The notes beneath the pieces were generated by a model. It was given only the letters and a program-made list of their open reading frames with translations. It was not told the DNA's origin and made no database searches. Made by a program: the position numbers and the translations under genes. DNA of 64,000 nt from positions 1-64,000 of the forward strand of contig JAUJYZ010000208.1 of assembly GCA_033675265.1 (NCBI GenBank), read 5' to 3'. This document shows, one piece after another, positions 32,601 through 41,600 of the stretch; position 1 is the first letter of the stretch, and each line of letters begins with the position of its first letter. This DNA comes from Actinostola sp. cb2023. Its lineage: Eukaryota > Cnidaria > Anthozoa > Actiniaria > Actinostolidae.

Positions 32601-35600
32601 GATACCTAAACTATTGCGTAACTGTACCACCAGAGGGATGGCATGTATTGAAACGAGTCTTTGTTGCGCGAGAACAGTCTATTATATTAAAAAAGGCGGT
32701 ATTGTTTGGATACCCAAACTATTGCGTAACTGTACCACCAGAGGGATGGCATGTATTGAAACGAGTCTTTGTTGCGCGAGAACAGTCTATTATATTAAAA
32801 AAGGCGGTATTGTTTAGATACCTAAACTATTGCGTAACTGTACCACCAGAGGGATGGCATGTATTGAAACGAGTCTTTGTTGCGCGAGAACAGTCTATTA
32901 TATTAAAAAAGGCGGTATTGTTTAGATACCTAAACTATTGCGTAACTGTACCACCAGAGGGATGGCATGTATTGAAACGAGTCTTTGTTGCGCGAGAACA
33001 GTCTATTATATTAAAAAAGGCGGTATTGTTTAGATACCTAAACTATTGCGTAACTGTACCACCAGAGGGATGGCATGTATTGTGAAAAGTCTTTTGTGGC
33101 ATGAATAAGATCCATCTTATATAAAAGTCATTTGTTCCGATATCAACTATTGCGTAATTGCAAAACCTTATGTATTGTGTCGAGTCTTTCATGGCATGAA
33201 TGAGGTCCATTATATCAAAAAGACTATTGTTCCGATATGCAAAGTATTGCATAGTTACTTTAGGTATAAATTACAGACAAGAGCCAAGTTACTTGGATTC
33301 ATTTTGCTTCGACGTGTTATCATGTCTTAACGTTTTCTCTGCTAGAGTTATGGCCCACAAACCGTGTCGACAGTTAAATAGCGTGGCCATACGAGACGAA
33401 CTACTTGCACAAATAATTCCATTGGTGAGGTCATCATGTTCGATTATCGGAGTAAAATGTGTCTGGCGAGTGCAGGGCGGAATGGCGGGCAAAGAATCAG
33501 CCTGGAGTCACATTGCAGCTAAACGAAACGAATGTGATGCCGTTGTTTCCAAAATTCCTGGAGTTGCTCTGTTCTTTTCTGCCATATCTACGTATCAATC
33601 GGCTAAACGTGATAACGTTCTAGATTCAGTTCAGCCTTCTGACGAAGAAGATGTCGTCGAAAACCAATCTCTAGAAACAACCTCTTCAACTCTATCGTCT
33701 CAGGTAAGATTAAACAAACTTCTAGTGGACGTGTTAGAAATTTTCATTTTCACTTTCACATTGAATTTTCTTTGACCTAACCTTGTTTCTTTGTTTAACG
33801 TCGAAGGTCCCAGAATCGATAACCAAATGCTCTAAAAGCAAAACATATCCATCGATCACTTACTGGGTGGCTATACAATCTGCCAATGGGGCTCCAGTTG
33901 ATGCATTAGTTCGGCTCCACTCCGCTCTCGTTCAGTGTGAAGTCGAAGTGAACTCAACACGAGCATCTGCAAAGAAAGGTGGCGGCGATATACTCAACAA
34001 GTTATGTCAACTGCTCAAAGACCACAAGAATAACTTCATGACCGACCTTGTTATAGCGTCATACAAGTGTTGCCGAGACGAACTGTTTAGAGAGATATCA
34101 GGGGAGTCGCCAGAAGAAGAACAACCTTTGCTGCAATGGGATCAAGTGGTACGCATGGTGGTGATCCGACCAGAAATTTCTCCTTCCCTGGCTGTGTCTG
34201 TGAAAAGGTTGCGAGCTGTTGGCCTATATTTCGACTTGTACGACGTCAAGAATCTCCTTGGACAAGAAAACACCGTGGATCCACCGAAACAGCTGGGTGA
34301 ACCTTTAACAGTGCTGTGCAATGACATTGAACGAGCATTAAAGAAACTTAATTATGGATACCGCGAGGGAGATGTCTACAAGAAACATCCCAAATCCAAA
34401 TACACATATTTTCGCCTGTGCTCTATGGAAAGTTTCCTCAACTCGTTGTTAGGCAATGCTCAGTTCAAAGATCGTTTGCTCTCGAACATGGGAAAGCTTC
34501 AAGTGATTTTACGACACCCAGATTGCCAAGCAATATCCCAGTTCGAAATAGATAGAGATCTTGTTGAAGTCAACGAAGGATGGTGTTGGTCTTTCCGTCG
34601 AAACAAATTCCTTGATCAACCATTTAATGCATCTCACGCTGGCCGAACATCGCCAAGGGCGTTTATTTCCTATGACCACGACGAGGAGATGAATCCCAAG
34701 TTCTTCAAAGAAATTCTGATCAACAGTCTAAACGATGTAGAGATAACAAGTCTGTGCGAAGACTTTCTACAGTTATTCAATTGTGATACAAGAGAGCACA
34801 AGCAAAAGGTCCCCTGTTTAATCGGACCGTCGAACAGCGGCAAGACGTCTTTGTTTATGGCAACGAACAAAATCATTGACATTGCAAAAGTAGCCCGAGT
34901 TACAAAACAAAAAGAGTTCAACAAAGCGATGATAGGGGAAGACACAGAACTTATCAACTTGGATGAAGCATCCGTCGACATGATGGACATAGATGACTGG
35001 AAAATAATGACCCAAGGAGGGTGGACCGCCCACGACAGAAAGTGGAAATCTGCCAAGGGATTCATCAACAAGGCCCCAATATTTATAACGTGTCAGAAAG
35101 ACCTGGACTTCGGTTCAGAAGAAGATAACGCAGCAATGGACAACCGTCTCAATAGACACTTCTTTAAAACTCTACCAGAAGTCAAAAAGGAGGCAGCGAA
35201 ATGGATTCAAAGTCATCCAATGAACTGCATAGTATGGGCAGCGGAAATGTGTGGTGCCAAATCAGATACTGACGATGAAGAGGTCCTGGAGGAGGAAGTC
35301 GACTGCTTTGACAAAGGATTATCTAAGAAGGACAAAGTGGCAATACTCTCCCTGAGTCTTGATGATGCTGTCGACGAACAAGCACAAGACTTCGAAGGTA
35401 CATTGGAGTTGATTTTGTACATAGAAGGGTGTGCAATATAAGTCAATGGATTATTAATTCTTATTATTCTTATTATTAAATTTTATTCTTCTTATTAATT
35501 CTTCTTCTTCTTCTTTTAGAAGGGAGTACAGATCCAGTGCCAACTGTGGTAGATCAGGTGATCGGAACAAGCCAAGACGAAAACCAAGAAAGTCATGACA

Positions 35601-38600: not shown

Positions 38601-41600
38601 TGAACTTTTTCTGATCGATAAAGCCCCCATTGCTCTTGGCCGTTTCGACCATGTCGACCGTCAAGTATTGATACGTCATTGGGCGCGATCCTTTGACTTT
38701 GATAAACAAATACACAGCTACAAACTTGGTGGCAAAAGACAGGTCTGATGGAGTTGCTTTCTTAGCTTTTTCCTTGCATAGTTTCGTCACAGTTTCATAA
38801 CGTGGAAGGTGATACGTCACCACGTGCAAAAGCTCATCTAACGTAGCCCAATGTCCCTTGGATTCTAAAGTGTCAATGTCGAGATCACTTGTCCATTGCA
38901 GCCTCATCATCTTAGAAACTGTTCTGCGTGCTCGTTTCAAATAAACTTCTGTTGCTGTTAAATTCCTCAGAACAGCATCTGAAGCCACTCCATGAACTTT
39001 TCGAAAATCGATCAAGTCACTTATAGAATCCAAGTATCCAAGGCGACCAGCATGACCAAGGCCCCAGTCACTCTGCATAACATCAACAAATTTGAAGAGA
39101 AAATTGGGCGAACTTAGGCTAAAGTCCACCAAATCCCAACTCAAATCTCCTTCATCTTCGTCTTCAAAGCAAAATTTCAGATACTTGAAACTCCTTCGTA
39201 CAATCTGTTGAGCTTGCCTTGTACTTTTGCATCCACCGCCACTGCCAGTCAGCCATGCTTCAAATTCTTTGCCTATAGTAGTCGTGATGTCAAAAGATGG
39301 AATAAGTTTTTTCAAACATTGTTCTTTCCCGGGATTTACTTTATCAGAATCATCTGCCTTCGATGTTGATGCGCTCGAACTCGGTTCAGAGTCAAAGAAA
39401 TAGAACCAAGAATGCTTGTTTTTGACGTGTTTCCTGCATCCTCTTTGACTCGAAAATCCCTCATGATCACAAATTGGAACTGGACAATGATACGAACCAT
39501 CGTTTTCGTCTTCTTCTAAATGTAATCTTTTTGGTTTTGGTGATGCACCATCTTGTTTTGACCAGTCGATGCATTTTGCACGTTTACTCATACTGGACCC
39601 GTTAATGTGAATATATCAAGTTAATTGAGTCGTAATTAAAATATTGATCCTATTTTGAATCTCTAGAGATTTAGTAGGACCAATCGACATTTCCCAAGAT
39701 GGGGCATGTTCAAACAAGTCTGTTATGTTTTGCTGATTCAACGAAAAACGCATCCAAACACGCTTCAACATGAATAGGCATGATCAATCCTGTATAGGCA
39801 TGCCCAATCATGTTTAAATCTGCCCAAACGTGTTTGCCCACACACGTTCAGGCGATTGAATACATTATTAGAGTTGCCTGTGCACCACCCTCTTCAGTTT
39901 TGATATCCTACACTCCCCTCTCCCCTAACAAACAATAAGTTTGCACTGGGATTCAAGAGTGGACATAAAACGTTCTCCTTTGTAAATAGGAACGATCTGT
40001 TCCTATGGCTACACAAGAGGAACACTTTGTTGCTTAAAAAGAACAAAATGTTCCTCGTGCAGAACCACAAAGGAACACTAGTTCCTATTGTTGGTCAATG
40101 TGGAACTGTTTATATATACAGAGGAACGAATAAGTCCTATTCAGTGAATTGGGACCATCAAAATGGGAACTTCAGTTCCTTTTAGATGTTGATAGGAACG
40201 GCAATTAGGACCACATGTTCCGATGTTAGTCCAAAAGAGAACACTATGTTCCTGTGTTGAAAAAAGGAACTCATTGTTCCGATTAGCTAGTTTTAAAGTT
40301 CCGATGAACACAAATTCGAAGGGAACAGTTGTTCCTGGTTTAAAGCTGTTTTTGAGTTCCGAATAAGTTCAAAGGAACGACTACAAAAACTCGCGGAACT
40401 TTCGATTAACTATAAACGGCTCTCGCGATCGGAAAAATGTATTTTTACAATTTTTAAAACAACAGTCATTATCACGGCACCAAAAACAACACGTTCACCA
40501 AATATCAAGCCATTTGCTTTTGTAAAACGTGCAAAAACAAGTGTCATCGATTTAGGGAAACGGTTATGACTATGGTAAGGGTAATGATGATGATGACTAT
40601 GGTAAAGGTAATGATGATGATGACTATGGTAAGGGTAATGATGATGATGACTATGGTAAGGGTAACGATGAAGATGACTATGGTAAGGGTAATGATGATG
40701 ATGATGATGACTATGGTAAGGGTGATAATGAGTATTATTATTGTTATGATGATGATGATGATGATGACTTTGGTAAAGATGATCAGATATACGATCCACT
40801 CGGTGACAAGTATGTCCTTGTAATAATCCCATCACTCAAGTATCAATACCAATTAAGCGTCACGCACCTGTTTCTCCAGCGTGACGATAATAATCATCCA
40901 CATTACGTTAGCAACAGCGAACACTGTCAAGAATGAGTCACGCAAGTCTTCCAATTTCTCCTTGAGTTCCGTCACGGCACCAAATATGGCGGACTCTGGG
41001 AGGAGGCAGGCTAATCGCAGACTTTTCCAAAAGCGATATTCTTTGCCGTCGTCTTGGTTAATGGTCTTGATGTCTGATAGATGGACTTTGTTCACCAACT
41101 CTCTAGCACGGCGAATCTCTCTTTGAGCTTGGTAAACACAAATACAAACACAGTTAAAGCATTCTAGAACACAGCTTTGTATACATACTAATACAGTGGG
41201 GAGAGGTAATGTACTGTACAGATGGCAGATCAGTACATTCTACCACAATCCTTTACGGGCATGAACGTCTATACATAATAATACAGTGGGGAGAGGTATA
41301 TATATATAATGTACTGTACAGAAGACGATGGGGGATCAGTACATTCCACTACAATCCTTTACGGGCATGAACGTCTATACATAATAATACAGTGGGGAGA
41401 GGTAATGTACTGTACAGAAGACGATGGGGGATCAGTACATTCTACCACAATCCTTTACGGGCATGAACGTCTATACATAATAATACAGTGGGGAGAGGTA
41501 TATAATGTACTGTACAGAAGACGATGGGGGATCAGTACATTCTACCGCAATAATTTACGGGCATGAACGTCTATAAGTACATTGAGGGTTGTCCAATACA

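Follow-up and report, generated by a model that had tools for sequence, protein, structure and literature searches.

We analysed a 64,000-nucleotide stretch (the window) of the genome of the sea anemone Actinostola sp. cb2023 (contig JAUJYZ010000208.1, positions 1 to 64,000), which carries a predicted superfamily 3 (SF3) helicase gene and a predicted tyrosine recombinase (YR) gene in convergent orientation inside one insertion. A 27-bp GAT-rich tandem array of the host is split, between 24490 and 40565, by a segment whose 11-bp inverted ends match perfectly. Our survey covered the genome of the same animal (424 Mb, 1594 contigs; C-numbers such as C763 and C599 denote loci on its contigs, and the two copies on contig C4 are named C4a and C4b). 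Comparison of these copies brings out convergent pairing within one genome, common ends, a GAT-rich target, a common gene content, and the motifs and folds of the enzymes; we take the pair to belong, in all likelihood, to a multi-copy family of two-gene DNA transposons that occurs in sea anemones and, judging from its proteins, in other hexacorals as well. The features on which this reading is built are as follows.

21157..24490, + strand: host target, left part of the 27-bp GAT-rich tandem array (repeat scan).
24491..40564, no strand: whole insertion, 16,074 bp, comprising the element and later insertions and interrupting the 27-bp GAT-rich tandem array.
24491..24501, + strand: helicase-side arm CGTTTCCCTAA; conservation extends over the first 221 bp (to 24711).
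33350..33703, + strand: helicase exon 1, 118 codons, 49% identical to residues 4-105 of P0127; donor GT at 33704.
33807..35397, + strand: helicase exon 2, N-terminal region and SF3 domain with GPSNSGKTS (Walker A), NLDEA (Walker B) and ITCQ (motif C).
35520..36460, + strand: helicase exon 3, helical C-terminal part with a basic tail, 97% identical to Actinostola P0208 over 199 residues.
36659..37898, no strand: later insertion between the genes, 1,240 bp, with TAGTCGTT at 36651 and 37899.
37864..39591, − strand: YR gene, a single 575-codon frame with an N-terminal C2H2-like segment (by eye) and a C-terminal TRF-like Myb/SANT domain.
39989..40399, no strand: GGAAC/GTTCC array of 21 pentamers, five being pairs in inverted orientation 4-5 bp apart.
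40538..40564, − strand: YR-side end, with the arm TTAGGGAAACG at 40552-40562, then GT.
40565..40783, + strand: host target, right part of the 27-bp GAT-rich array (repeat scan); the two 150-bp flanks have 108 12-mers in common.

The helicase gene (33350-36460, + strand) is made of three open blocks parted by GT..AG introns, and the exon coordinates add up to 962 codons including the stop, or 961 residues. Each exon matches relatives on its own, and the splice in the exon 2/exon 3 region is also used in the P0208 gene model. Across 157 helicase matches, fragments included, Walker A is found in 134 and Walker B in 136. Pfam gives SF3-type matches for the family, and the fold of the relative P0127 agrees, with fold matches headed by the viral and satellite replication helicases SaPI5, adeno-associated virus (AAV) Rep, B19 NS1, E1 and D5. 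The window helicase block alone has no significant match in Pfam, a sequence search of the PDB returned no relative of the helicase, and in PHROGs P0127 has one DNA primase match (4e-05), the rest being weak or none. With Walker A, Walker B and the SF3 fold in place, motifs and structural modelling identify the predicted protein as an SF3 helicase.

In the YR gene, the catalytic residues R303, H398, R401, H428 and Y437 are all present, and R303, H398, R401 and Y437 are near-invariant across 121 aligned YR sequences; by this R-H-R-Y set, the predicted protein is a tyrosine recombinase. The Myb domain is found in 58 of 61 YRs. The 1,240-bp insertion takes the place of approximately the last 11 YR codons in the window copy and has no match in the other fetched loci. 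In C763 and C4b, from which it is absent, the DNA passes from window position 36658 straight to about 37896, which rules out a frameshift as the cause of the odd C-terminal end. Judged by sequence, both window genes are near-intact, not perfectly complete.

An earlier note on this DNA had placed the two genes at these positions, convergent and inside one insertion, and had named their products an SF3 helicase and a tyrosine recombinase. The positions and orientation agree with ours, the single insertion is borne out by the interrupted GAT-rich array and the perfect 11-bp inverted ends, and the naming by motifs, Pfam family matches, folds and the YR alignment. The note had also described both genes as intact and the helicase as open, complete and about 961 residues long: the position and length of the helicase stand, as does the 575-codon YR frame with its catalytic residues, but the helicase is split over three exons rather than being one open frame, and the YR has had about 11 C-terminal codons replaced by the insertion. 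That conserved pairing with conserved ends should mark an element was likewise proposed there, and this holds in the same genome, as set out below.

YR matches in the genome number 45 and merge into 27 loci (fragments included; a lower bound), and the 46 helicase matches merge into 26 loci, with identities to the window of approximately 33% to 98%. A helicase lies within 8 kb of 18 of the 27 YR loci, for which chance would give about 0.001 per locus, and 17 of these 18 pairs are convergent. The gap between the genes is 1.0-1.8 kb in 15 of the 17, 2.4 kb in the window and 6.2 kb at C31; the 18th pair involves a YR fragment inside a cluster on C1506. Independently, the Actinostola gene model P0208 reads from helicase exons into YR antisense. 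Contigs of equal size (170080, 4856, 717496 and 32227393) recur in both the YR and the helicase lists of 120 protein matches, suggesting pairing; that on 170080 is confirmed in the Actinostola genome, 4856 and 717496 agree in size only, and 32227393 is chromosome-sized and therefore weak. A protein search with P0158 added no further contig common to the two lists, as compared by eye.

The unpaired loci, 9 of 27 for the YR and 9 of 26 for the helicase, call for caution on pairing. Four of the nine YR loci are matches of 31-78 residues, C968 and C1037 carry helicase remnants, and at C527 no helicase was seen beside the YR within 46001-56512; the other two loci are C942 and C1433. Such loci are what might be expected if two unrelated repeat families had come together by chance or segmental duplication. 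Against this, however, stand the 17 convergent pairs and the different flanks of the 10 arm-bearing ends that were read, and the spread of helicase identities excludes one duplicated block; we give this explanation practically no credence.

The two genes also appear to travel together. Over 15 copies, the identity of the YR to that of the window correlates with that of the helicase (Spearman 0.75, from a single rounded value per copy and without the second C1506 copy), which speaks for joint inheritance. C763 and C4b match the window at 97-99% in both genes. In C4a, C736 and C1593, the YR is 91-96% identical over most of its length (80% at the C-terminal end in C736) and the helicase 36-51%; in C297, C599 and C1069, the DNA from window position 38153 to the YR-side end is 94-97% identical and the helicase blocks 68-73%. 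Module exchange between elements is the simplest reading of these mosaic identities; with both genes retained at 97-99% in C763 and C4b, faster evolution of the helicase is less likely.

The ends recur with the genes. The helicase-side 11-mer is exact in C57, C4, C599, C297, C19 and C1069 and has one mismatch in C527 and C1407, and window positions 24491-24711 are 87-89% identical in C599, C297 and C1069. On the YR side, 14 ends could be read and 10 of them show the 11-mer CGTTTCCCTAA, two with one mismatch. Allowing up to two mismatches, the 22-mer of the YR end has 18 matches genome-wide, including the window, versus 0 for a reversed control; 14 of the 18 lie, by eye, on the YR side of a YR gene at a distance of 0.9-1.1 kb (4.3 kb in C581). 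The other four, at C401:14578, C902:131064, C1319:212151 and C1386:211123, are without a nearby YR match and are possible non-autonomous or solo-end derivatives. For comparison, an inverted match of at least 11 bp occurs in 120 of 198,667 random pairs of 40-bp window stretches outside tandem arrays. Both arms bound the copies at C599 (319504-328617), C297 (4527-12686), C19 (12498-20916) and C1069 (220021-227908), which measure 7.9-9.1 kb, as well as C4a (153839-164027, 10.2 kb), whose helicase-side arm lies at a tandem junction. One more distant locus, C687 (approximately 377936-378350; YR 54%), keeps a dense GGAAC array, has no 11-mer arm and adjoins a CTCTCC-rich repeat, which may point to arms and a target that differ from one subfamily to another.

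The family copies sit in GAT/CAT-rich repeats, as far as their flanking sequences tell. At least three overlapping GAT/CAT hexamers within 60 bp are found in 14 of 15 arm-bearing end flanks versus 3.65% of random stretches from the fetched loci, a count that left out the C4b, C527, C1407 and C687 ends and the helicase-side ends of C4a, C527 and C1407. The 12-mers common to both flanks (108 in the window, 130 in C297 and 72 in C19) indicate that the array continues on either side. Telomere targeting, a candidate prompted by the telomere hexamer in the arms, was dropped in favour of GAT targeting; the window has no TTAGGG tandem.

DDE elements typically have short terminal inverted repeats, and a fixed-length target duplication would be unreadable inside GAT repeats. 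The ends might thus be those of a DDE transposon that carries the two genes as cargo, with the YR not the integrating enzyme. The end matches accompany YR genes (14 of 18), however, and no third gene was seen in the scanned parts of five elements. The arm length also fits a YR core site, for which arms of 11-13 bp around a spacer of 6-8 bp are reported (PMC3212892), and endogenous nimavirus YRs likewise insert into a short repeated motif (PMC10871703). We consider a DDE origin of the ends very improbable.

For the movement of the element, we infer a circle, arm cleavage, helicase loading sites, a PCNA contact and replicative copy gain. The YR would excise the element through recombination of its 11-bp inverted arms, and the freed circle would read TTAGGGAAACG-GTGATGAT-CGTTTCCCTAA, that is, two 11-bp inverted arms around approximately 8 bp, in the standard layout of a YR core site. 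Of this layout, the inverted arms are seen, the spacer of about 8 bp is deduced from the flanks, and no intact arm-spacer-arm junction was found. The YR would then insert the circle into GAT-rich repeats, where the target GATGAT matches the spacer; a GATGAT spacer would explain the GAT-rich target. As the combination of a TRF-like Myb domain with TTAGGG in the arms suggests, we hypothesize that this domain helps to recognize the TTAGGG-containing arms. Two head-to-tail junctions, on C4 near 164027 (C4b) and on C527 near 56040, join the helicase-side end of one element to a damaged YR-side end of another and, degraded as they are, are compatible with an extrachromosomal circle.

The SF3 helicase would load on the GGAAC array next to the YR gene, or else on inverted tandem arrays adjacent to its own gene, recruit PCNA through a C-terminal PIP-like motif and drive extra rounds of replication of the circle by host polymerase before reintegration. 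The GGAAC/GTTCC pentamers are concentrated in one place: 21 fall in 0.4 kb between the YR start and the end, of 73 in the whole window, and 11 other copies have 18-21 in the same interval. In C19, C1407 and C687, where the region is less than 90% identical, conservation is 0.78 in the motif columns and 0.59 elsewhere in the array, a figure to which C687 contributes a loose alignment at only 53% identity. Pentamer arrays and long inverted repeats are reminiscent of viral and plasmid origins, and the GGAAC array is a candidate helicase-loading or regulatory site. Taken as a whole, a YR-excised circle, GAT insertion and helicase-driven replication form the explanation that we favour and, together with the family itself, think likely to be right.

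The helicase could instead belong to one mobile element without multiplying it, acting at excision or integration (in unwinding, repair or timing), with copies gained when excision precedes the replication fork or when the vacated site is repaired. The modest number of YR loci (only 27, as a lower bound with fragments) would suit this, and replication is a step that we infer. To our knowledge, however, SF3 helicases of known function are replicative, and the closest folds, headed by SaPI5, AAV Rep, B19 NS1, E1 and D5, belong to that class; the repeated, partly inverted motifs in the element and the PIP-like tail in most long relatives also argue for replication. We therefore regard a non-multiplying helicase as unlikely.

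Several observations weigh against the replicating-circle explanation or parts of it. Motif C, in which N is usual among SF3 helicases, carries Q in 74 of 74 helicases in which the pattern was found (of 157). The PIP-like C-terminal motif occurs in 67 among 78 long helicase relatives, which are related to one another, so that the 67 are not independent, and the window helicase's own tail has no strict PIP pattern match. Foldseek matches the YR fold weakly (best E 0.018), model confidence is low in the catalytic part, and six YRs of the family matched no YR family in Pfam. The stretches fetched from C763, C736, C687, C968 and C1037 showed no helicase-side arm, and the YR-side arm is missing in C1407 and C687. 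Neither junction has an intact arm pair (C4b is without 47 bp of the YR-side end, and the C527 arms are degraded), and the spacer is read from flanks that are GAT repeats themselves. C599 and C1069 have zero 12-mers common to both flanks, so that a single pre-insertion array is not evident there. At the unpaired helicase loci C1275 and C902, 8.5 kb of sequence apiece contains neither a YR nor arms nor a GGAAC array, and the inverted tandem arrays are absent from C19.

The closest folds being viral or satellite replication helicases, the element could also be a defective or endogenous DNA virus, a satellite-like replication-integration module whose capsid genes have been lost or come from a helper in trans. 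An SF3 helicase together with a YR, as in the anemone element, is found in some Polinton-like viruses and virophages, which carry capsid and packaging genes as well (PMC4642659); papillomavirus-E1-like cressviruses (RepE1) are reported from sea anemone datasets, apparently also in integrated form, in a paper whose sole YR mention concerns another virus (PMC11071296). We scanned frames of at least 90 codons in C297 (4527-12500), C1069 (whole, in two parts), C19 (12498-19000), C599 (319504-327000) and C1407 (189690-195000). No capsid-like, packaging or other sizeable gene was seen in these parts of five elements, in which small exons might be concealed by introns. Apart from the two genes and the frames antisense to them, just three frames reach 150 codons; they overlap one another at C19:12608-13221, and two are plainly simple repeats. 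IMG/VR viral contigs, scanned with both proteins, both alignments and the arm pair, returned nothing. A virus-like element, as the earlier note had it, thus finds no support here, and we consider a viral origin quite improbable.

Among known systems, animal Cryptons (CryptonA and CryptonI) resemble the anemone element in a YR as the integrating enzyme, a presumed circular intermediate and presence in cnidarians; they are described as lacking both a C-terminal domain and terminal repeats, in a report whose main text never mentions a helicase (PMC3212892). The anemone element, by contrast, has a helicase gene (at 18 of 27 loci), a C-terminal Myb domain and 11-bp inverted ends. By sequence it thus departs from two defining features of animal Cryptons, a YR that stands alone with no C-terminal domain and the lack of terminal repeats. 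The YRs of crustacean endogenous nimaviruses possess a C2H2 domain and integrate at a single microsatellite, the telomere repeat; complete majanivirus genomes measure 278-401 kb (PMC10871703), whereas the anemone element has two genes in approximately 8-16 kb and a GAT-rich target. Papillomavirus E1, parvovirus NS1 and the RepE1 cressviruses (the last compared by description) differ from the anemone element, which has no capsid gene in view and instead a YR and defined ends. The helicase fold of SaPI5 and the phage-inducible chromosomal islands (PICIs) is matched by the anemone SF3 helicase, although SaPIs are bacterial and no phage-like gene was seen in the anemone element. SaPIs are packaged by a helper phage. 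The yeast 2-micron plasmid is circular and has a YR, inverted repeats and a tandem-repeat locus, in all of which, by description, it resembles the anemone element; it stays a plasmid and has no SF3 helicase.

Most of the YR transposons known from eukaryotes are either recombinase-only systems or retroelements. No YR and SF3 helicase pairing in an animal transposon is described among the literature matches listed, which comprised titles, abstract openings and passages, with Repbase outside the scope. The anemone element may be a new type of YR DNA transposon and possibly a new superfamily. Its own replicative-type helicase, clean ends, defined target and several near-identical copies make a circle-and-replicate model testable in a cnidarian, and it ties the replication helicases of small DNA viruses to an animal transposon in which no capsid gene was seen. 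A bolder proposal, for and against which we would put equal weight, is a new superfamily of animal DNA transposons that exist as circles able to integrate and to replicate themselves: a YR with a telomere-factor-like Myb domain would recognize the TTAGGG-containing arms and target GAT repeats, and a swappable SF3 helicase would start replication at the internal GGAAC or inverted tandem arrays with the help of host PCNA; this would be, in effect, a capsid-free animal counterpart of bacterial integrating satellites.

By comparison of copies, later insertions have enlarged the window copy to 16.1 kb. Besides the 1,240-bp insertion, the following features lie on the helicase side.

24748..28542, − strand: 97-bp unit in tandem array, broken up by a LINE-like (long interspersed nuclear element-like) copy; related arrays in C599, C297 and C1069.
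approximately 25066-26901, strand not given: LINE-like copy in the 97-bp array, with poly-A and ACTATCAGTGGGAT at 25052 and 26902; a LINE by appearance.
30445..32125, + strand: 97-bp unit in opposite orientation, the inverted partner of the 24748-28542 array.
32266..33082, + strand: 108-bp tandem repeat upstream of the helicase gene, with approximately 5 copies upstream of the C763 helicase.

The inverted array pair starts approximately 0.25 kb inside the helicase-side end of the window copy. C599, C297 and C1069 carry inverted arrays of 97-100-bp units in the corresponding position, 73-74% identical to those of the window; in C599, they consist of 9.7 and 7.8 copies of a 100-bp unit, likewise inverted relative to each other. 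With the window, this makes four copies that have the arrays, which assigns them to the element and rules out nested foreign material as their source. The LINE-like copy has no match in 24 other fetched loci, and Pfam found nothing on 25097-25957. Between the arrays, the stretch 28543-30444 has an inverted repeat of its own, is longer than the 0.16-0.20 kb in C599, C297 and C1069, and has no match in the 24 fetched loci searched; it is probably a separate later insertion.

Around the insertion, open hydrophobic segments at 20641-20928 and 40853-41128 (− strand) flank the interrupted array and resemble neighbouring exons of one membrane protein, presumably a chitin synthase, a label that Pfam (both segments) and the PDB (first segment only) did not support. 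The element may lie in an intron of a membrane-protein gene split across the interrupted array. Elsewhere in the window, two tandem arrays with strong GC skew were observed, one of a 62-bp unit at 8384-17726 (approximately 146 copies) and one of the 8-bp unit GCAGGGAT at 54922-60344 (approximately 683 copies).

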